Shown here in pieces: positions 20,456 through 64,000 of a stretch of 64,000 bases of DNA (positions within the stretch are counted from its first letter, which is position 1; each line of letters begins with the position of its first letter). The stretch covers positions 4,409,466 through 4,473,465 of the forward strand of contig NC_036459.1 of NCBI RefSeq assembly GCF_002775205.1. The letters run 5' to 3'. The translations under genes and the position numbers were made by a program. Source of the DNA: Xiphophorus maculatus (Eukaryota; Chordata; Actinopteri; Cyprinodontiformes; Poeciliidae). Under the pieces are notes generated by a model. The model worked only from the letters and a program-made list of their open reading frames with translations. It was not told the origin of the DNA and did no database searches.

Positions 20456-20534
<79 letters not shown>

Positions 20535-42029: not shown

Positions 42030-42126
<97 letters not shown>

Positions 42127-42151
42127 ACGCACGCACACACAACAACAACAA
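42030..42151. repeat. (CA)n microsatellite with short (AAC)n tail
   Basis: About 110 bases of CA with a few CG substitutions (CGCACA units at the right end), followed by AACAACAAC. Confidence 0.95.
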
Positions 42152-49166: not shown

Positions 49167-49251
49167 CTCCTGTTCTGTGTATGGCACTGGTAGAATTCAC
49201 TGTGAGAGCTCGCTATCAGTGAATTACCATAGGGCCATAAACAGAGCAGAG
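49167..49251 (+). ncRNA. mir183: miR-183 precursor hairpin
   Basis: The 5p arm (49180-49201) begins TATGGCACTGGTAGAATTC, the known miR-183 sequence, seed AUGGCAC. The 3p arm (49219-49240) begins GTGAATTACCATAGGGCC and pairs with it around a GTGAGAGCTCGCTATCA loop. Flanking CTGTTCTGTG and CAGAGCAG extend the stem. miR-183 is expressed in photoreceptors, hair cells and other sensory neurons across vertebrates. First member of a three-hairpin cluster, in the same orientation as UBE2H, as in human. Confidence 0.97.
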
Positions 49252-49435
49252 AAAGAACCACTTGCTTCTCAGCTTACTTTCTGCTGCTGTGCTCTTCTGT
49301 TGCTCATGGGTGGGATGCGGAAAGTGATGTAACTTTCTGGTGCATGGGCTGTATTGCGACATGTTGTTCATCTTTTCCTCCATGTGTCTCTGTGACAACA
49401 GCTGCTTGCCTTTGGATACCCAAGCCACTCTTCTT

Positions 49436-49516
49436 CTTTGCCCATTTTGGCACTAGCACATTTTTGCTTCTGTATATATACTTTGAGCAATTATGTGTAG
49501 TGCCAATATAGGACAA
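49436..49516 (+). ncRNA. mir96: miR-96 precursor hairpin
   Basis: The 5p arm (49446-49468) begins TTTGGCACTAGCACATTTT, the known miR-96 sequence, seed UUGGCAC. The 3p arm (49488-49509) is CAATTATGTGTAGTGCCAAT with two more bases. The loop is TCTGTATATATACTTTGAG. It starts 266 bases after the miR-183 5p arm. Seed mutations in mammalian miR-96 cause progressive hearing loss; the seed here is intact. Confidence 0.97.
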
Positions 49517-49792
49517 GATAGATTTCCAACAAATTCGCTCGGCTGTGGATTGGAATGCTTTCGCCATCCAGTTTGATTTGTTTGGTTGCTTAACTCTCGT
49601 TTATATTCTTCGGGGAAAATGCACCCATTTTATGAGAATGTTATAATGGAAGCCAACACCCAAGAGGACTCTCCCCAAATCAAAGAAAAAATCAGACCTT
49701 TTTTTCCCACCCATGTGCATTTATGGCTCCATTGCAAACTGTTTGTCTTCACTTTCTTCATGTTTTTGGCTTCTGTGGGTTCAGAGAGTCCC

Positions 49793-49890
49793 GGCAGCTC
49801 TCAGGTGGTGTTTGGCAATGGTAGAACTCACACTGGTGAGGTAGATGGATCCGGTGGTTCTAGACTTGCCAACTACTGTCTGGGAGCGTC
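49793..49890 (+). ncRNA. mir182: miR-182 precursor hairpin
   Basis: The 5p arm (49811-49834) begins TTTGGCAATGGTAGAACTCA, the known miR-182 sequence, seed UUGGCAA. The 3p arm (49855-49875) is TGGTTCTAGACTTGCCAACT plus A, with the loop GGTGAGGTAGATGGATCCGG. It starts 365 bases after miR-96, so all three hairpins lie in about 0.72 kb and very probably share one primary transcript. Confidence 0.97.
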
Positions 49891-51500
49891 CGCCAGCTAA
49901 AAGCGACAACAACATGGCAGGTCCTGTGCTGATAAAAGTCTGAGGAACATTTTTACATTTTTAGTGAGTGAGTGAGTGGCTGAAGGTGATGAAGGGTGGG
50001 GTGAGCCTCTGTTCCTCCCCTGCACACCCTGGCCTCAGAGCTCCAGTAACTCCGTGAAGGTCATTTTAGGCTTTTGGTATGTGGTCTTGAAGGTCGTCCA
50101 TCCATTTGTATTTTACACCCTGCTGCTGGAACATATCTACGATGGGTTACACATCTGGACAATTGTAATGGTTGGATTCACACAAAAGCCTCACATTTTT
50201 TGCTGATATGTAAGTAAAAAAAGACAACTACAATGTCATAAATGTTCTAAAAAATCATGGCGAATTTGATGCTCACTGCATTTGTTTGTGGGCACTTTGG
50301 AGTCTGCCATACAAATTGATTGCATCGTATGCACAGTAGAAGACAAAACATACCTTGAAGTTTCAAGTCCATCCATTCATCCATTATCTTCCACTTATGT
50401 GATATGGAGTTTTTAGTCAAAGGTCAATAAAAGTTTTGTTTTTTTTAACAGAATGCAGTCAGAGCTGAAATGTGTTGAAACACTCCAAAAAAAAAAAAAC
50501 CCAACTTGTACATATCTTTCAATAAAACTACCTCTCTGCTATTAGTGGGGTGTATACAGTATGTTCAGGTAAAAAATGAGAAGTTAATTCATCAAAATAT
50601 TCTACCCAATAATGTATTGTCTCTGTTTTAGATCATTAACTCCCAACAAAGTTCCTCAATCACACCTGTCCTGAATGTCTTAAGTGTCTCCTTGCTGTCA
50701 CACACCTGACTTAAATAACTGGGTGACTAACAGACTTCAGCAGCACTAGATGTCATGCAGAGAAGGTCATGCAATCATTTGAATCAGATATTATATGTAA
50801 CATATATGCTGGAACAAAGACACATCTTAAACATGTTGGACGGGGCCTGAGAACCAGGGTTGGAAACCTCTGTTTTACATGACTATATGCCCATGAAAAG
50901 CACACTAACCATCAGGTACCCATAGACTACTAGCCTCATGTCCACTGACTGCTGAAGAAAAGCACCTGCTTTCAGGTCACTTACCAATTTTTAACAAATA
51001 TCAAGATTTTGAAAAGTTCCAAAACACACACACACAAAACATCAGTGTTCTTATAGCTTAAAATACTATTAAATATGATGCTAAAGAAAGTGCTGTAATG
51101 ACTGGAGTGTTTTTCAATTAAAGTTGCTCTGCTCCTACCCCACATATTGCCATCCTGACTATCTACCACTCTTATAAGGGGGACACTGCTTTGAAACTAA
51201 CAATGTTAAGCTAACCCTGAATGCCTGTTAAGCAATTAACTATACGCGGATTGCCTCAGCAAATAGCCTGACTAGCCAACTTATAGCTGCTTGTTATGTT
51301 AATTGCAATGCAAATATTATTAAACCATGTTTTTTAACGCTATTGTGAGATTCTCATACTGTCCCATTTCTTTTGGGAGTGTGACATTATCAAAATTTTT
51401 ACTGAGAGCTCCTGTGAAGACTGATGAGCAGATCCATTGGTGGCTTGTGTCAGGCTAAGTAACACTTTTCTTTGACTCCTCTGGAATTCGACGTCAATCT
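49891..51500. other. downstream flank of the miR-183 cluster
   Basis: No gene seen. Contains the MITE-like repeat at 50640-50880, listed separately, and a short CA run at 51025-51037. Confidence 0.45.
50640..50880. mobile_element. hAT-type MITE-like repeat common in fish
   Basis: Recognised by CACACCTGACTTAAATAACT, CTTCAGCAGCACTAGATGTC, AGAAGGTCATGCAATCATTT and GAACCAGGGTTGGAAACCTC. These match a very abundant teleost repeat that ends in ...GAGGACCAGGGTTGAGAACC-like words. It is non-coding and diverged. Confidence 0.65.
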
Positions 51501-51507
51501 TTGGCTA

Positions 51508-51580
51508 GCATCTTCTGCAGGCAGTTCAGAAGATGCCTGCACCAGTTTTGACTGGTAGTCATCGACTACCAGTCAAAACT
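51508..51580. repeat. two adjacent hairpins
   Basis: The first hairpin has a perfect 10-bp stem (51508-51517 with 51527-51536, arm GCATCTTCTG). The second has a perfect 17-bp stem with a 3-base loop (51544-51560 with 51564-51580, arm AGTTTTGACTGGTAGTC). Role unknown. Confidence 0.85.
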
Positions 51581-54440
51581 AGTCAAATTTTGTCTAGATA
51601 ACTGGAAGAAGCTTTGAATGGGTGTTTTAATTCAGCCGTCAGCTCATTTTTGCACATCAGTTAGCTAGCAGACCCATCACATTTTCCATGACCGGAGGTG
51701 AGTCATCATTTTTACCACTTAAAAGTAATATTTATTACCATATAGAAGTGATATAGATCAAATTTGTTCATCATGTGCAAAAGTGATAACTTTTAAGGAA
51801 GCTTTAAGGAATAGCTTGATTGAAAATAATAGCTTGATTGAATTTACCACTATCACTCTTTTTTTGACATGCACTAAAATAGCCAACGTATTCTTAGGAA
51901 AAAAAGATAAGCAAAGCTCTCAATAGCAGTAAGTTCTTTCAGACCATTCATGTGTTTAATGGATGATACAAATTGCTTGTAGTTTGTGCTGGTAACGCAA
52001 CAACAATAATGAATTTCTCTGCCCATCAGTCAGTTTTTCCTGATAGGTTTTGACTTTGATGGCGCAGAGATATGAGATGTGCTGCAGTGGACTTTATGCA
52101 CAGATGTCCAGCCATTCCTGCTTGCAGCCAGCGGCGATCAGAGGACTCCTGTCTTAGCTCCTGTGGCATAATTGCCAACCCATGCGGTGTCGTCTTACCC
52201 TCCTCTTTCAATGCAGCCTTGTTGACGACGAATGGTTGCGAGCGAGGGACTCTCCCTCAGATGTTACCTTGCACTAACAGTGAATTGACAGTTTGGCTCT
52301 AATCAAGAAGAATAAAACTGCTCTACTCTGAGCTTTCTATATCTGGGTCAGGGTCTGCTAATGTAGGTGACAGGGGGATATGTTGGGATTTAAAACCCTT
52401 TATCTGCCTTTGCATTAATCCTGCTTTATGGCCCACACTTGAGCTTTAGCTAATATGATTTGTATTGTCAACGGTTTGCCTGAAGGCCTGGTGCATTTGA
52501 TCTACCAGGATGTCATCACTAGACTTCAGCAAAAGGCTCTTACGCTTTTGCACAGTTGAGGCACTAAGAGAGTCGGTAAGTGCGAAGGTTGTTCAGATAC
52601 ATATTTGGGATGATCTAAATGAAAACCTGTGTTCAGCGGGCAAAAGGCCTTAGCCAAAACCATCCAGTCTGTAAGTTCCAGTGTGCTGGCACCTGCTGAC
52701 TCATCTCTCAAGTTACTTGTTTTTCTTTTTTTAGCACACCCCAAAAAAAGTCCGTAATAAATTCTTCCAAAAAGACTGCGTCCATTGTGTCAGCTTCCCT
52801 CTAACGATCTTCTCTGCAGCAAAGTGCATTGTGGGATCACCCCTGTCAATGCGAGGCCTTCTCCAGATGGGCCGAACAGATCAGGTTACACTGCATTTTT
52901 GAGTGCACCCTCTCCCCACAGACCACCCCGCCTCCCAACCACCACCTTCAGCAACTCTCTGGCCCCTTTCTCTCTCAGTCTGACTCACTCGCAGTTTCCT
53001 GGGTGGGTAGAGTCGAGCTGAGACAGTGCTTCTCCTGTGTTCTAATGCAGGCTGCAGAGCATTAGTGAAATAAGATTATCTTCGTCCTTACGCAGTGTCT
53101 GGACCGGAGTTGGACGAAGGTGTGAGTCGGCCGCTATTAGGCTGCATTTAAGGCGGAAGATGCTTCATCAGCAAGCATGTCTGCATTTTAGCCCATTATT
53201 TTCATTGCCTTTCCACAGATCGTTGAACATTTTCCATCTTATGGAGATGTGGTTTGAAAGACAGGATCTCCAAGCATGTATTTCCACTTTGTAGTGTGAT
53301 TATGCTGTCTTAGCTTGAGGTTCACGGATCAATCAGGTCCGTCTGTCAGTCGATCTCAAAAGCAAACTTTTTCCACTTATGCTGTACAATTGCAATTCAA
53401 CCTTATTCCTTAGCTCGCACGCTGATGCACAGTGCATGTAAAACTATTCACTCCCTTGGATGCTTTACCCTTCTGTTGCATTTACAAATCAGTCATAATC
53501 AATAAAATGTAGCTTTTCTGATTAAAGGTTTAAAACAAGGGAGGTTTTAATGTCAAAGTGACAACTGATTTCTACAAAATAATGACAATTAATTGCTGGT
53601 CATTAATTATAGCAATGATTTGGTCAGGCAAACCCTCTTGGTGGGTTTTGTAGTTCTTTCTTACTGAATCCAGGTCTAAGCACTGTTTTTTACCAGCGCA
53701 TGCTTCTGGAAGAAGAGTCATCATGAAGAGCTTGATTAGAGCTTGAAAGGTTCAACCAGTCAAAGGTGGATTGGGGGAAATGTGAAAAAACTATATCACA
53801 ATATAAACCGAATATGCTTTTCTTAATTCTTCTAAGACATTTCTTTAATCTGAGAAAGTCCATAAACATTTATACATAGTTTTCTAGATATTATACTATT
53901 TCAAGAGCTCTAAAGTGTTTCCAGTTTAGGTTGCAAAAACTTCCAATTAAAGACTTAGTACATACAGTTATTCAGTCATGTTAAAATTCACCAAAGGTCA
54001 AATCTTAGGAAGTTCGCAGGCAATTTGATAAGGGACAACTAGAAATATGCGTTCATCTGGTCCCAAAGCAGTGATTTTTTATTTTTAAGAGATTAAGTCT
54101 TGTTTGAGCAAGTAGGGGCTCAGGCCAGAAGCATGTCATCCATATGTGTGGAATATGTGTGCATGCGTGCAGAGGTGGAGAGCCTGGGATGCACACGTAT
54201 TAAGAAACGATTAGTGGAGATTAAAGCCCGGCTACAGAGTCTGCTTGCAGAACTCTGGACAAAAAGAATGACCCAGCCCCTCCCTGCAGCGCACCCCCTG
54301 TGGTGCAGTGCCACTGAAGTCATGGCTGAAGCTTCATCCAACTGTTAAGAAGGATCAATGGCAGTGGCTCCCCTCTTCGGATGGATCTTTCACTGCTAAA
54401 TATATTGCTTTCATGATGGAGAACCAAAGCTTTTCTGTGT
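51581..54440. other. intergenic with a decayed repeat
   Basis: No gene is supported. From about 53415 to 53790 phrases such as GTGCATGTAAAACTATTCAC, TTACTGAATCCAGGTCTAAG and AGTCAAAGGTGGATTGGGG fit a decayed Tc1-like element end. A GC-richer patch at 52.8-53.0 kb shows no coding signature. Confidence 0.4.
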
Positions 54441-54444
54441 AGGT

Positions 54445-55320
54445 CAGGGGTCACCAACAGAGTGTCTGTGGGCGCCCCAGGTTTGACCTAGGAGTTGCCC
54501 AATGAGCTGTTGACCTAAAAAAGATATTTCATTGATCATTACATTTCATAATTTAAAATAAACTGGTAGTTGTTTGTAGTACCGGACAAGGGCGGCACTT
54601 TAGGGGGGGCGGCGAGCCCCCGGCCAGGGCCTAGAGGAGGCCCGGATGGAAAACAGGAAATTACGTCAAGGATCCAGGTCTTTATCACGTCTGATGAGAG
54701 CTGGAGAAAGAAAGCCCTCTCCTGTCGAGTATGGTGTATGTAGGATTTTTTAATATTGTGCCCCAGTAGATTATATAGTAGACTGCCCCAGTCATTGTTG
54801 ACTCATGGTTGCTAAAAACTTTACCAGACCGACTGGTTTTAGTGACATAGTGGGTGTAAAATATTGAATAAAATTTTGTGCTACATGACTGGCTTTATTT
54901 ACATTTTACTTTATGACACAAGTGGATCGTCCTTATTGTCTCCAAGTGTATTCTGGGTAAGGCTTGTCACCAGCCGTCCACCAACGTCATCATCAGTCAC
55001 TTGGCAACAGATAGCAAACTAGCTAGAGCATTTTTACGGACTACGTTAACATGAGAGGAGCTCCATGGAGCGGCAACGTGAAAAGGATGAAAAAAAGAGA
55101 GCAAGGACAAGGCAAACATTGGACGCATATTTTGTTTCTCGTCTTGGGAGATGAACCGGACTTTTTTGTTGGCAGCGATTCAGACCCGCCAAAACTGCCA
55201 GCCCAGCGAAGGAGCCGGACTAGTTACAGGTAGCAACTCTGACATTATTCACAATGTGTGAGTTAACTGATACAATTTACTGATTGTGAAGTGTACCAGC
55301 CCAGCCGCCTAGCTTACATC
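54445..55320. mobile_element. hAT-type repeat fragments
   Basis: Begins CAGGGGTCACCAACAGAGTG, the typical left end of a fish hAT family, with GGGCGCCCCAGGT following. From about 54585 a second GC-rich repeat start (GGGCGGCACTTTAGG...GCGAGCCCCCGGCC) is seen. A short frame near 55065-55145 has a basic stretch then TLDAYFVSRLG, which looks like a transposase N terminus, but no intact gene. Boundaries are uncertain. Confidence 0.45.
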
Positions 55321-55525
55321 CCCTTTTCTCTCCGTCATTGGTACAGCGGTGATGTCAGGGGCTGAAGGCTGAGTTATAGTCGCTTCGGGTTGAGCGCGTG
55401 TTTGAGCCAAGCCAGCAGTATGGCGTTTATAGTTACGGTTTACATTGGAGCTGCCCGGAGCTGGACGCCGTCCGTGAAGCTGACACCCCACCCACCTCAA
55501 AAAATTCAGCAAATAGTCTGAGTGG

Positions 55526-56290
55526 TTAGTGCTCCGTTAGTGCAGGTTTGTGCCGTTAAAATTTTCGTTTGTGCAGCTTTCGTTTTCGAGATATTAAAAA
55601 TTATATTTTAGGTCATCCAGAGTTCACCATCCCCCCATGTTGCTCCAAAACAAACCAAACTAGGCTACTTCGTTAGTGCTCCGTTTGTGCAGGTTTGTGC
55701 AGTTAAAATTTTCGTTTGTGCAGCTTTCGTTTTCGAGATATTAAAAGTTATAATTTTGGCCGATGACGTCACCATCCCCCCATGTTGCGCCAAAACGAAC
55801 CAAACTAGGCTACTTCGTTAGTGCTTCGTTAGTGCAGGTTTGTGCAGTTAAAACGGACGTTTGTGCAGCTTTGGTTTCTGAAATATTAAAGATTATTTTT
55901 TAGGTCATCCGAGTTCACCATCCCCCCATGTTGCTCCGAAACACACCAAACTGGGCTACTTCGTTAGTGCTTCGTTTGTGCAGGTTTGTGCCGTTAAAAT
56001 TTTCGTTTGTGCAGCTTTCGTTTTCGAGATATTAAAAGTTATAATTTTGGCCGATGACGTCACCATCCCCCCATGTTGCGCCAAAACGAACCAAACTAGG
56101 CTACTTCGTTAGTGCTCCGTTAGTGCAGGTTTGTGCAGTTAAAACGGACGTTTGTGCAGCTTTGGTTTCTGAAATATTAAAAGTTATAATTTTGGCCGAT
56201 GACGTCACCATCCCCCCATGTTGCGCCAAAACAAAACAAACTGGGCTACTTCGTTAGTGCTCCGTTAGTGCAGGTTTGTGCCGTAAGCTA
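55526..56290 (+). repeat. left arm tandem array, 145-146-bp unit, about 5.2 copies
   Basis: Each unit reads through CGTTAGTGCTxCGTTxGTGC, then a TTCGTTTGTGCAGCTTTCG-type stretch, an AT-rich middle, then CACCATCCCCCCATGTTGC and a CCAAACTxGGCTACTT end. Two sub-types alternate: one carries GATGACGTCACC, the other GGTCATCCGAGTTCACC. The alternation suggests a 291-bp higher-order unit that was amplified. Confidence 0.9.
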
Positions 56291-57225
56291 TCCATGCATA
56301 CATCCTCTCTGCTTTGCATCGAGTCAACATTTTATATGAAACCTGAACATTAATTTACTTACCTTGTTCAAAAATCAAAATCAGGGTTGGAAAAATTCCA
56401 AAGATGACTCTTTCAAAACGATTTCTTTCAAACTGCTAGAATAATTTCAACGAGAGGCTGAAATTACACTTGCTCTTCCGCAAAAACAACACTCGCTACA
56501 GTGTGGGTGGAGCCAATCACAGTTGACGTTGTGTGAGAACTTTGTCAAAGTTGGCAAAACATTTTACGTGCTTTTAAAAATCCTTGAAGATCACGCATAT
56601 ACATTTAATGTCAGAAATTGGATGAAATGAAACTCGTTGCATTTAAAATATATTTACTAAATATTAAGTACATTACTTGGATGAACTTTGTTGAACCAAT
56701 GACCCTGCCATGCACTTCCGGTTTAACTCTGCAAAAACTTTATTTGCTCAAGAAACTAGCATGTTAGCTATGGATTTTTTGTTGTTGTCGTTTTTTACCC
56801 TTTTGCTGCATAATCAGCAGAAAGTAAGTCAACAATGTGAATATAATTGTTGAAACCACCTCCGAAACCAAAGCACAGTTGAACAGTCGTACAAATACAC
56901 ACATTATGTTACGGTCACGGCCGCATGTCCTGTCTTGACAGGATTCATTTATTGTGGAGAAAGTTATATTGGTGAGAAAACATTACTATCTAAAAACATT
57001 TCTTGAAATGAGACAAATTTCTTCTTGTTCGAAATCTTTATTGAAGTTCAAAACAAAAGAAGGTACACATTGTACAACAGCTGAAAATCTGCAGAATTTA
57101 ACTTACACAATAACATACAAAATTAATAACTGCTTGCTTTGTGGTTATGTCCAGAGCAGGCCACAGTCATCAATTTAGGTGAAGTCAGTTGGCGTATGAA
57201 AAAAAATTATGTAATATCTCATGAT

Positions 57226-57816
57226 GAGCAGTAGCCCAGTTTGTTTTGTTTTGGCGCAACATGGGGGGATGGTGAACTCGGATGACCTAAAAAATAATCT
57301 TTAATATTTCAGAAACCAAAGCTGCACAAACGTCCGTTTTAACTGCACAAACCTGCACTAACGAAGCACTAACGAAGTAGCCTAGTTTGGTTCGTTTTGG
57401 CGCAACATGGGGGGATGGTGACGTCATCGGCCAAAATTATAACTTTTAATATCTCGAAAACGAAAGCTGCACAAACGAAAATTTTAACGGCACAAACCTG
57501 CACAAACGAAGCACTAACGAAGTAGCCCAGTTTGGTGTGTTTCGGAGCAACATGGGGGGATGGTGAACTCGGATGACCTAAAAAATAATCTTTAATATTT
57601 CAGAAACGAAAGCTGCACAAACGTCCGTTTTAACTGCACAAACCTGCACAAACGGAGCACTAACGAAGTAGCCTAGTTTGGTTTGTTTTGGAGCAACATG
57701 GGGGGATGGTGAACTCTGGATGACCTAAAATATAATTTTTAATATCTCGAAAACGAAAGCTGCACAAACGAAAATTTTAACGGCACAAACCTGCACTAAC
57801 GGAGCACTAACCACTC
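57226..57816 (-). repeat. right arm tandem array, inverted, about 4 copies
   Basis: The same 145-146-bp units in reverse complement, with the same two sub-types. They can pair with the left arm over about 590 bp. Confidence 0.9.
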
Positions 57817-57844
57817 AGACTATTTGCTGAATTTTTTGAGGTGG

Positions 57845-60800
57845 CCCGGACGAGCGTGAACCGCGGCGCGCGCGATCCGCGCCGACTTACAAACATCCAG
57901 AGGTGCACGAGGTGCTGCGACACACTGCGCATGCGGAGCGTGCCTCTGCGTGGCTTCTTCAACGCGCGCTGCTGCGTGCTCGGTTCAACGGGTCAACCAG
58001 GCTTCAGGCTCTGAGTTGAAATTAACAAAGTGTCAAAATGATCCGAACCCATCCGCGGTTCTGAACTGATTTGAATTTGTGTCGTTTCATCGTTAGTGAC
58101 CAGCAGCCTGATGTTTCTGTTGTTCTCTTGGTTTGTTGTACTTCATGTCAGATTCATTCCAGAATGACATATTCGCTCTAAGTGGTGGTGAAACTTGTAA
58201 GCTCCACTGTTGCGGGCATGTCTATGTTGTAAAGTTAAATTATCATGAGCTTCATTATTTGGGTACAAAGGGCCTGGTCATTAGCCCCGCCCCCCGGCCC
58301 GACTCTGACTTGTTCCGCTCGTGGTACCCAGGAAGTAGCTCTCAGTTGCAAAACCTAATGACCCCTAGATATCAATCATTTATTAATTGAATTTTCTCCT
58401 TAAAAATGGTTTATTTCTAACATGGACTTACAAAACACAAAGCTGTTGCATCACCTACTGTAAGATTTGATTGCACTTTGTGGTGGTGTCGCTGACTGAA
58501 AGAGAGGGAGGTAGGCTTTTCCAGGAAAACATGCTAATAAGTCCTTTAATCTACAGAGTTAGTTTGCATATCAAACTTAAAATGACTCAAATGCTATGTG
58601 GAGACATGCACTTAGTCTTGTGCGAATCACACTTTTAAGGTTCCAATCCAAAATACCAGGGGAGAGTTTAGAACAATAAGCAATAAAGGATGTTTTCATC
58701 TGTCTGAAAACAATCTTGTTCGGCTTTAATCTGGAGGAAGAGTGGGATGCACACTATGACGCCTGATAGATTAGGGCCTGTATGCTTCTCTCTGTCTCTC
58801 TCTCTCTGTTCTGCTCCGCAACAGAAGGGCCCTGCTAGCAAATCCCAGGCTTTAAAGCAGAGGAGGTTCAGGCAGCTTATGATGTAATCAAGGCCCTGTC
58901 TGTCACTGCGGGAAAGGTGGGGGGTGGAGTGGAAAGGAGCATTGAGGTTATTGGGTTTTGTGGCATAATTAGAAAAAAAAGAGGCAATAAGAGTAAGATA
59001 CAAAAAAGTGGGCAGCGAAACCTCAGAACATGAACAAAATTTTATCAGAAAGAAAACACAGGGGTTAAAAAGCTTTTAGATTTTTGCCTTATTTTAAATT
59101 AGCATCATGAATCTAAATAAATGTAAAATATTTTTTCCACTTACAAAGAAAAATATATTTATATATATACTTCAGACATGTTAAAGGCTGTACTAGAATA
59201 AAATTTAGAACATTGAAGACAAAAAAAACAGTTGTTCCACATGGATCAGTTGCAAATAAATTAGATTTGAACAGACAAATCACTTAAAAGTCTACATCAT
59301 GCCACAAAGCAGTAAAAATCCCCCATGTCTGAGGAGACAAAAATGAATTAATCTTAGTAGCAAACACTAAAAAGCTTGTAAGTAAAGATTTTTGTTTTCT
59401 TGTTGATCCGGAGGTCTGAGAATGTGTCTTTCCTCGTGTCCTAGCATGAAGAAAGACACGAGTAAGTTGGTTTTGGCCATGTAGGAAGTGATGTCAGAAG
59501 TGAAGAGACAAATGTTTGGGTCAGTGTGGTGAAAATCTGGTGGGATTTCTTTGAATTTGAGTAGGCATCGCCAGATTGAACTTGACAAGTGGATTGCAGG
59601 CACTAGACATTTTCCAGAGGCTGTACTGTTAAACTCTATAAAGACCAAGGTTTAAAGTATACACATTGCTTCACTTCTTATCCATAGTAGTTTTAAACAG
59701 AATATAAAACATGACCTTTGGTTTCCTTTTCTTCCATGTGTCCTGTCGTTTCCTTTCAGGAATTTCATATACGTAGAGAAGCTGGTTGCCTACAAGACCG
59801 AATCCTAATTGCATGATTGACTTTAAAAAAAAAAATCTGAACTTTAAAGAAAAGGACAGCTCTAAAGTAGGCAGGCTGTAATGCTCCAAACGTGATCTGT
59901 ATTTGTATGACCTTCAACAATGTGGATTATTATTGATGCCCTCAGGACCCTACTGATGTGTGGGTGTTTGGTTGAGCCTCCTGACTGATGTGAAGAAAAC
60001 GTTTCATTAATTGGGTGGTGAAGCTGCTCATCAGCCTGCCAGCCTCAGCCTTAGTGTCTTTTACCAAAGCTTGTATTTAAAATTTATTGTGTTCATTACT
60101 CTAACGGCTGTGGCTACGCCATTTCTATTGTTTTCAATTAGAGACTCTGTAATTGAGGCTACATATTTGAGGGCTTTTGTTGGGATAATTATGGAGAAGA
60201 GCCCTGGAAATGGTAAAAGATCACTCGTCATCGCCATCTTTGCCAACAGATTCCCTAGGGAGAGCTGCACAGCGTGTTGCATCCTCTAAAGATTGGGAGC
60301 AGATGCCCTGGAATCTGGTTAAGAGTAACTCCCGAACTGCTTTGTGAATGTGGATCTCTTTTGCTTCCTGTTCCCAAGCCTGATTTCGCCATCTGGGAGA
60401 GCGCGGATGCTGTCTTTAGGAGGGTCGTAAGCCACACCTGTGGATTTGATGTGCGTGTGTGTGTCATGCATAAACAAGATCACAGACTTGAGGAAACACT
60501 GTGCTGTTGAAAGAAAACCACTTCAGCGAAATACAAAAAAGGAAAAAGATTTTTCACCTTTGTAATAGAACAAAATTAGGAACCTCAGACTGGGTCTATT
60601 GTCCAGTGGGGCTCTGAATGGAGCTGTTGAACAGACCAGATGAGAAGCTGCTTCCAGAAGGTCTCATTCAAAGCAAGGCCAGGTTAGCCAATCGTATCCG
60701 TATTCTCTTCCGCCTGCCAAAGACATTCCCAGGAGCCCTGCCCTTGATTTCAGTCTTACTTTCCCTTTAAACAAAAAAAACTTCAATGTCCAGCTTAAAA

Positions 60801-61334
60801 GCTCCTTTACTTAGTGATTCAAAGTGCTTCCTGTTATTTTGGGTGTAAATTTAATTGCTCTTTAGAGAAAGGATATCATACAAAAATGGTGGTGGGAGAA
60901 TGTTTGTCTGCGTCTGCTTCACGGTCTACCACCTTTCTTTAATGAAAAAGAAAACATTTGGAAGCTTTGAAGTGGTCTAGCCAAAGTCTGGATTTGGTGT
61001 TCAGGCTGAAAACCCTCCAATGTCTCTAAATTAAAACAAATGTACAAAGATGAGACAAACATATTCCACTGATTCGAAACACTTCGACTAGTTTCTGCCA
61101 ACACAGATCATCAACAGAGAGACAGCCAAAAATACTAAGTAATCCCCAAATATTTCAAATTGTGAAGCATTGTCACTTTAGTTATTTAATATTAATAAAT
61201 TAACACACAACCTATGTTAGGAAGGTTTACCATCAGCAGAGGAACCGTTTGACTGAGAAACATCTCACTGGAGTCTCTTAATACACAAGCATGGTGGAGT
61301 TTAAAGTAGAAGTTACAGCTGTTTCAGACGTCCA
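57845..61334. other. intergenic, foldback element to NRF1
   Basis: The first 130 bases are CpG-rich (GCGCGCGATCCGCGCC and a near NRF1-type motif at 57926-57936). After that it is AT-rich with no gene. At about 60860-61150 phrases such as TGGTGGTGGGAGAATGTTTG and GTGGTCTAGCCAAAGTCTGG fit a decayed plus-strand Tc1-like element. Confidence 0.45.
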
Positions 61335-62165
61335 CTCTGGAGACACATTTTATTTATTTCACGGCTCAAAATGTTCATCTGCATTACAAATGTGACATTT
61401 AATCCAAATTTGACTTCCAGCAATGAGCGAAGAGGCGTTGATCAAGAAGATTCAAGTGATCCATGTTAAAAATAACATACTAAAGGGTGCGCCTCCAAGT
61501 TCATGCACTATAAATAATAATAATAATAAAAAAAATAAAAAAAAACCAAGACGGGTTTAATAACGCAGCAGTAAACAACAGCGTAATGTATATCCTGAGA
61601 CTGCCAGTCTTGGCATGTTTGGGTGTGATAAAAGAAAAACGGAAACAAGCACATGACAAGACAATGTAATTTAATTTAGTTTTCCCCTCTAATGTGAGAA
61701 AATGATATGGGAGTGTGCAGAGCAGCGATGGGGAACGAGAGGAACCAAAGGGAGTGACTGCTGATTGTGGCACCACATTTTAAACAAATAAAAATAATCG
61801 ACTAGCATTACATAGTACGTACACATCAAGCCCAAAATTGATCGCAATGATATTGTGGCTTTCCTTCCGTGTTTTTATTTTATTTTTTTGGTTTAAAGTG
61901 AGGGTTAATTTTACAGAAATAAATACTAGACACTCAACATCACAGAGCTTAAAAAATATGAAGATAAATGAAATTCAACAACAAAAGTCTTATCTTTACA
62001 TAGTAAACACAATGCATTGATAATCATTTTTACTTTCCCCTGCAGTGGTACATTTAAAAATATATTCAACATCGTACACAATGTGTTGTCTTGAAAAAAA
62101 CAGAAGAGAAACAAGTCTCCAAGATGGCTGTTCAGTGCCTTCTACTCCGTTCGAGGTCCATAGTG
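61335..62165 (-). other. nrf1: NRF1 3' UTR and polyadenylation signals
   Basis: Minus-strand AT-rich sequence after the NRF1 stop codon. Two minus-strand AATAAA signals overlap near 61349-61358, and the sequence around them looks like a typical 3' end. The boundary is inferred. Confidence 0.5.
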
Positions 62166-62326
62166 TCACTGCTCCAAGGTCACGACCTCCACTGCCTGGC
62201 CGTCCAGTGTGACAGTGTTGTCTATGCGTGTGGCGACGGGCGCCATCGCCACCTGAACTGGCCGGTTGCCCTGGGCGAGGCTGGTCACTACAGTCTGGTA
62301 CATGCTGACCGGGATCTGGACCAATC
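62166..62326 (-). CDS. nrf1: Nuclear respiratory factor 1, last coding exon
   Basis: Partial gene. The exon runs on the minus strand from 62326 (after a GTTAG acceptor at 62328-62327) to the TGA at 62168-62166, starting in phase for (G)LVQIPVSMYQTVVTSLAQGN. It ends DNTVTLDGQAVEVVTLEQ, the exact C terminus of vertebrate NRF1. It encodes 52 residues of the C-terminal transactivation region; the DNA-binding domain and all earlier exons lie beyond 64000. NRF1 is a homodimeric activator of nuclear genes for mitochondrial respiration and of many CpG-island promoters. It converges on UBE2H with the microRNA cluster between, as in human. Confidence 0.96.
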
Positions 62327-64000
62327 CTAACGGGAACAAAGGAGAGCGGAATCGGCGTCAACACCAAGCAAAGGAAATATCATTTTACCTCTCAGAGACG
62401 ATGACGTTTTTGTTAGAATATCAACAACACATGTCAGAGTTCCTACTCAGTTTTTATGCTAAAATTTCCTGGTTCTAGATGGATGTACAGATGAAGAAAA
62501 CTCTTTAGATGAATACAAGAACATATGGGTGATGGACAAACGAATGACTGAATTAAATGGATCTATGTGTTGATGAATGAATAGAAGGACGGAAAGAAGG
62601 ACATATCAGTTGAATAAAAGGAAGTATAGACGATTGGAAGATAAATTTAGATGTACAGAATGGGTCAGTGGATGGATGGAGACGTGTATTGATATAAACC
62701 TCTCTTTTTTCCATATTCATCCAGCCCTGGAAACTAATAAAAATGAAATTCCATACTCCTTCAGATTGTGTAGGAACCTTGTATGTTACTTCATAGAGCA
62801 TTGTACCAATCAGACATCCTCGGCTCGCTTCCCCCATTCCCAGCTGTTTTAGTGTTTTGAGTCTCTGCCTGTAGGGATTATTGCTGCGGACATGTGGGCC
62901 TTTTGCTCCTCCCTGCAAGCTGCCACTGTGTCACAAGAAGGCCTGAATATCAGCGCAGGAGATGGCAGTGGCTTGCGATCGCTCCTGTAACTCATGCTAG
63001 GACTGGTAATAGCTCTGGATATCAGAGGAGGGATTAGCTGGAGAAACGCTGGCCTGAAAAGGTGGCCACAGAAACCACAGTAACTGACTGAAGGCTTCCA
63101 AAAGACCGCTCAGATATTTCCACTTTGACATTACAGAGGCCTGGCTGCGTTTATGTCAGTTTGTGAACGACATGAGCCAGTCAGCCAGCGGTATGAGTCA
63201 GCGCACTTCACTTCTGTATAGCTCCTGATTAGCTGACCTCAACAGAAGATACTGCATTATTTTTAAATGATAAAAATGAATACCCTTAATTTTAAGGCGT
63301 ACAATGTTGATGTACATTTTCACCGATATCTTAATTTGACAAATTTTTCAATAATATAGAAAGATTATTATTTATTTTTTTTACACTCCTTGTGTAGTAG
63401 AAACTGAAAACCGTTGGCCAATAGGTTATTGGATGAATATATTCTGTATTCTTTAATTAAATAATTCAGCTTCACTGATGTGATCAGATTTTTCTGTCTG
63501 TTCTTTCCTGGGCTTCGTTATATAGTTTTTCACCAACTGGTATTGTTCCTTTTAATATCTAGGGTTGAATTAGAATGCATGTAATTGGATGTGAATCTGG
63601 CAATATGACTGAATTGCAGGAAAATTGATCAGATTGTTTTGAACTGATATTTGATCAAATTGAATTCTGTCTGACTGTATATAAAATTGACCTTCTTGTC
63701 TTGTAAAGTATCTCAAGATGACATTTATTTCAAACGGGCAGTACATAAAAAAACGTAAAAAATGAAAAAAGAAAAAGTAAAAAAAGTTTCTTTCGGCTTA
63801 TCTTCAATTGCCCCATTTATCTTTGTTGTAAATTTTGTAATTTCTTGCACTGTGCTTGTTAGGTGTGCGCTCTGGTCCTGGCTTCACTCATGGGCTTTCT
63901 TAACCTCTGCAGGGTACAAACAGTAAGCTGAGACAAGAATGCGAACCGATTGATTTTCTATAAGTGCTCTATCCCATTCAACACTGAAAGCGATGCTGGC
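62327..64000 (-). other. nrf1: NRF1 intron (partial)
   Basis: No further exon is recognised up to the window end. A degenerate GGATG/GAATGA-type simple repeat lies at about 62480-62690. The GC-richer part at 62.9-63.2 kb has no coding signature; it could be a regulatory element, which cannot be tested here. Confidence 0.6.

Follow-up and report, generated by a model that had tools for sequence, protein, structure and literature searches.

A probable foldback DNA transposon with inverted arrays of tandem 146-bp units in a vertebrate genome

What is the inverted structure at 55492-57844 of this stretch of vertebrate DNA, and is it a mobile insertion or a product of local duplication? We propose that it is a foldback DNA transposon of class II (TIR), non-autonomous, with arms that would serve as docking arrays for a transposase supplied in trans. 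We give this explanation a probability of roughly two in three. The element is probably a mobile insertion, a status that rests on its architecture and is read from the single copy in the window (the whole stretch of DNA that was analysed, 64 kb).

The inverted repeat, taken to its maximal extent, starts at 55492 and ends at 57844, exactly where the initial annotation had placed its ends. The element is thus about 2.35 kb long, and it is apparently non-coding. Its inverted arms measure 793 bp (left) and 615 bp (right) and enclose a core that had been put at 930 bp, which is close to the 945 bp that we measured. Both arms follow one plan, in which an identical 33-bp end piece is followed by tandem units of 145-147 bp. 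The left arm has five units and part of a sixth, a stub of 32 bp; the right arm has four. The foldback architecture reported earlier, with five and four opposed tandem copies, was borne out by the inverted-repeat, TRF and unit alignments. The features are as follows.

55492 to 55524, plus strand: left terminal piece, 33 bp, starting CCACCTCAAAAAATTCAGC; identical to the right terminal piece at 33 of 33 positions
55525 to 56284, plus strand: left arm array, units L1 to L5 and the 32-bp stub (tandem-repeat and unit alignment)
55525, 55672, 55817, 55963 and 56108, plus strand: starts of units L1 to L5, each also the start of a four-motif block; the stub occupies 56253-56284
55525 to 55574, plus strand: the four-motif block as found in L1, with GTTWGTGC at offsets 0, 11, 21 and 42
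56108 to 56252, plus strand: unit L5, a b/y chimera that holds a conversion-like tract relative to R4 (unit and arm alignment)
56285 to 57229, no strand assigned: core, 945 bp, 34.7% G+C (six-frame Pfam scan and composition)
57230 to 57811, minus strand: right arm array, from R1 (outermost) to R4 (innermost) (tandem-repeat and unit alignment)
57811, 57664, 57518 and 57373, minus-strand reading: starts of units R1 to R4, each also the start of a four-motif block
57812 to 57844, minus strand: right terminal piece, 33 bp, identical to the left terminal piece

Unit lengths are 147, 145, 146, 145 and 145 bp for L1 to L5 and 147, 146 and 145 bp for R1 to R3; R4 ends 2 bp before the unit end. The inverted tandem-unit structure is real and not the work of chance. 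When up to two mismatches were allowed, a 17-letter pattern representing the unit had ten matches in the window, nine of them inside the element, where shuffled sequences lead one to expect 0.12. Similarly, the 19-bp terminus (up to three mismatches, 0.06 matches expected) was found in the window only at the two ends of the element. The structure may be an assembly artefact, though its arms differ in their number of units. Folding of the outermost 180 bp of a single arm as DNA gave z = 0.25. Thus, an arm has no structure of its own, and the foldback is between the arms.

Each unit carries a block of short motifs. There are 48 copies of the motif GTTWGTGC in the window, 39 of them in the element (23 in the left arm, 16 in the right arm and none in the core) and nine elsewhere. 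All nine units carry the motif four times (offsets 0, 11, 21 and 42), and the stub carries it three times; the spaced block of four is absent from the rest of the window. Because the offsets lie near multiples of 10.5, the sites would fall on one face of the helix. GTTWGTGC was picked after inspection of the sequence. A lag test that uses no motif was run on the initial 75 bases of each left unit. Of 2457 window stretches, 36 equalled or exceeded the scores of L1 and L2, 54 that of L4 and 218 those of L3 and L5; the periodicity of the left units is only moderately unusual. We regard the unit arrays as putative transposase-docking arrays.

The units fall into subtypes. In the nine-unit alignment, the first half takes one of two forms at columns 38-41 (a, TTTT; b, CGGA), and the second half is either x or y at columns 75-99, with x' being x plus one extra base. 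Read from outer to inner, the right arm is ax', bx, ay, bx and the left arm is ax', ay, bx, ay, by. The two subtypes had been said to alternate. This is strictly so in the right arm, but in the left arm, where the first halves read a-a-b-a-b, the order is interrupted by an additional unit and by L5, a chimera that joins a b first half to a y second half. The suggestion that a dimer was amplified is supported by TRF, which on the left arm favours a period of 291 (score 1306) over a period of 145 (score 1140); on the right arm it reports a period of 146. The y-type units L2, L4, L5 and R3 also contain the palindrome TGACGTCA, which we take to be a CREB/ATF-type site; its four occurrences in the window, at 55764, 56055, 56200 and 57419, all lie in these units.

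The arms proved to be as similar as had been claimed. Their outermost 217 bp are identical, and the matched arms also agree fully over their innermost 46 bp. If one 145-bp block is removed from the left arm (starting anywhere from 55687 to 55709), only 13 edits separate it from the 615-bp right arm, and the two arms then match in which variants they carry and in how these are ordered. Two of the 13 edits are isolated. The other 11 are clustered within roughly 26 bp, a single tract in which R4 is of the x form and L5 of the y form. At both isolated positions, columns 10 and 57, the bases are ones that other units have as well. The truncated end of R4 apart, none of the variable columns in the nine-unit alignment sets one unit off from all the others. 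The arms were thus homogenised recently, and what separates them is the number of units and the exchange of existing variants rather than independent mutation.

Whether the insertion itself is young, as the initial annotation held, is a separate matter. The two arms have observed-to-expected CpG ratios of 1.10 and 1.04, compared with 0.63 for the core and 0.51 for the window, and such values in the arms agree with a recent origin. The absence of private variants and the CpG values both fit a young insertion; homogenisation alone would yield the first of these. The mosaic pattern shows sequence exchange between the arms. What their similarity dates is therefore the latest homogenisation, which need not coincide with an insertion. 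Thus, youth agrees with the data, but the likeness of the arms need not date the event.

The ends of the element were less informative. No exact target-site duplication of 2-12 bp was found at boundary offsets from -3 to +11, and none of 5-12 bp with one mismatch was found at the element ends. As a duplication can be lost by recombination, its absence does not exclude a transposon. Six comparisons of flank with flank gave shuffle values from 0.067 to 0.99, none of them convincing. The 7-bp word GCCCGGA is present on both sides, but this was not counted: one occurrence (57844-57850) takes in the final base of the right end, and the other (55453-55459) lies 32 bp beyond the left end. A word shared in the same manner occurred in 9 of 1003 random control pairs, and we discount it because the controls were admitted at a lower G+C than the real flanks and because many placements and lengths were scanned. 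The end pieces were also compared with the units for kinship; the best of ten comparisons (L3, antisense) had a shuffle value of 0.09, which is not significant.

These results bear on a different origin, in which a minisatellite and 33 bp of its flank were duplicated locally in inverted orientation, for example by replication-fork template switching, and gene conversion kept the arms alike. Such a structure would not be mobile. In a self-comparison of the 64-kb window at E 0.01, no second copy of the element and no further single unit was found. With neither a target-site duplication nor another copy found in the window, inverted duplication at the locus is a live rival. It is also in line with a core that has no transposase or family match above cut-off. 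The 33-bp end pieces could be flank that was carried along, so they are not proof of mobility. Conversely, an end piece, tandem units and an unrelated middle make up the anatomy of described foldback transposons, as far as the cited part of PMC4079207 describes them, and a lone unit left elsewhere in the window was not seen; neither point is decisive. On balance we consider a local duplication unlikely, and we prefer a non-autonomous foldback transposon.

If the element is a transposon, it might also lie at a rearrangement junction, formed when two copies recombined ectopically and a flank of one was joined to a flank of the other. This would be a special case of the preferred explanation and is not exclusive of it. 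It would account for the missing target-site duplication, and it has precedents, as Galileo has generated inversions and DAIBAM, a Tetris-related element, is found at Drosophila inversion breakpoints, according to the cited sections of PMC4079207 and PMC3688188. However, both flanks are alike in being G+C-rich (65% and 71% over 51 bp), as if they had once been continuous, and we think a junction improbable. A Pfam scan of both flanks (50500-55491 and 57845-62800) gave no match at E 0.01.

Several other features of the window were recorded. A short open frame at 55050-55154, just left of the element, includes MERQREKDEKKRARTRQ and resembled the start of a transposon-encoded protein; Pfam finds nothing in it at E 0.01. 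About 5.6 kb from the element lies a cluster of mir-183, mir-96 and mir-182 (49173-49880, plus strand), all three above the Rfam gathering scores. This cluster marks the DNA as vertebrate, and the host is probably a fish. TRF also reported long TA and CA microsatellites at 20461-20532 and 42030-42141, respectively.

The core offers no coding sequence for a transposase that we could recognise. A six-frame Pfam scan of it gave no transposase match and only three weak matches, all under the curated cut-offs (best E = 0.0065), which we took for chance. Additionally, no duplication of at least 4 bp was found at the core edges. One possibility is that the core is a captured fragment of a host gene (Pack-type) with a promoter and first exons, which would add to the preferred explanation rather than replace it. 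A strong splice-donor-like site on the minus strand at 56362, AAGGTAAGT, points this way. Its score is 12.6; when the best site was taken from each 945-nt control stretch, the 95th percentile was 10.7. The site may mark a first exon directed into the left arm. CCAAT- and ETS-like boxes, spotted by eye, point the same way.

Most gene signals of the core, however, were no better than those of controls, this donor site being the one exception, and none of its six frames has a Pfam family match above cut-off. The best acceptors of the core fell below the control median on both strands. The plus strand has a possible signal-peptide exon, but signal-peptide-like ATGs were present in 45% of 254 control stretches. 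A hypothetical spliced peptide of 31 residues had one match in PDB, to a designed helical protein (E = 0.12). We therefore regard gene capture as doubtful. The core may equally be the leftover interior of an autonomous element.

Based on these results, we propose a model for how a foldback transposon of this kind could work and how its arms could have formed. The 33-bp ends may hold the cleavage sites, and the unit arrays would multiply a helically phased block of four motifs, such that each unit could dock the DNA-binding domain of a transposase. The transposase would come in trans from an autonomous relative. We hypothesize that a module of two units (about 291 bp) was amplified in tandem to build up the arms and that one arm served as template for the other. 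Later, unequal exchange, by which one unit was gained or lost, and short conversion tracts could keep the arms alike. We infer mobility, transposase binding, mobilisation in trans and the order of these events.

A bolder version of this model is that the element represents a vertebrate foldback family that moves without a target-site duplication, with satellite-like ends whose recognition sites form an amplifying phased array, homogenised by continual conversion between the arms. We give this version little credence. Most likely, the element is a new example of a known design and not a new kind of element, and its family may already be listed in Repbase or Dfam. Searches with the unit and end patterns found no copy among viral contigs and prokaryotic genome contigs, which says little because these collections hold no vertebrate genomes. 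Six words of the element sequence were looked for in the full text of papers, and none were found.

The element was also compared with families that could have explained its ends. Spy elements insert between AAA and TTT without a target-site duplication. That context was not found here, as the flanks read ...CACCCCAC on the left and CCCGGACG... on the right; moreover, Spy is said to occur only in invertebrates in the cited part of PMC9179366. The 8-10 bp target-site duplication of the Mutator type was not found at the element ends. EnSpmN6_DR, a non-autonomous zebrafish element, was set aside on its size of 346 bases, as given in the part of its description that we used.

Sleeping Beauty is of fish origin and has two sites per arm and a TA target-site duplication, whereas the present element has 23 motif copies on the left and 16 on the right and no duplication was found. 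Nevertheless, putative transposase sites are repeated within the inverted repeats here as in Tc1/mariner elements such as Sleeping Beauty (PMC3688188, cited section). The likeness to Galileo, a Drosophila element of the P superfamily, is one of description: both have foldback-like long TIRs in which the number of internal tandem repeats is unequal between the arms. As the cited parts of the Galileo papers relate, its tandem repeats expanded independently in the two arms (PMC3573991), and those in its TIRs contain binding sites for the THAP domain of the transposase (PMC3688188). Binding of transposase to the repeats has been shown for Galileo, whereas it is predicted here. Nearly complete Galileo copies, in the same accounts, retain transposase-coding sequence, and none was recognised in the core of this copy; non-autonomous copies lack a transposase anyway.

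Among the described elements that we compared, Tetris, a foldback element of Drosophila virilis, appears to be the closest in architecture. We rely for Tetris on the cited sections of PMC4079207, which describe an element without apparent coding capacity whose TIRs contain a terminal piece and tandem units of about 220 bp. The present element is likewise apparently non-coding, with a terminal piece and tandem units in long TIRs and a variable middle. Two Tetris alleles differ by one unit, which was attributed to unequal crossing-over (PMC4079207); here the one-unit difference is between the arms. The two elements differ in unit length (146 bp here, about 220 bp in Tetris), in sequence and in host phylum. 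In those sections, the terminal piece of Tetris reaches up to 866 bp, compared with 33 bp here, and it shares 37 bp with the units, whereas nothing significant is shared here. The Tetris authors suggest membership of the Mutator superfamily, with target-site duplications of 8-10 bp, and no duplication was found at the present element.

None of the literature matches listed, judged by titles and abstract beginnings, was a vertebrate foldback element with tandem-repeat arms. The same part of PMC4079207 gives the hosts of the foldback design as Drosophila and also rye, Arabidopsis, sea urchin and Chironomus. If the element is confirmed as a family, it would be a clear natural instance of a foldback element whose arms exchange sequence, and it would offer a short motif that can be tested for transposase binding. 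It would also be a vertebrate example of an architecture known from Drosophila and these further hosts.
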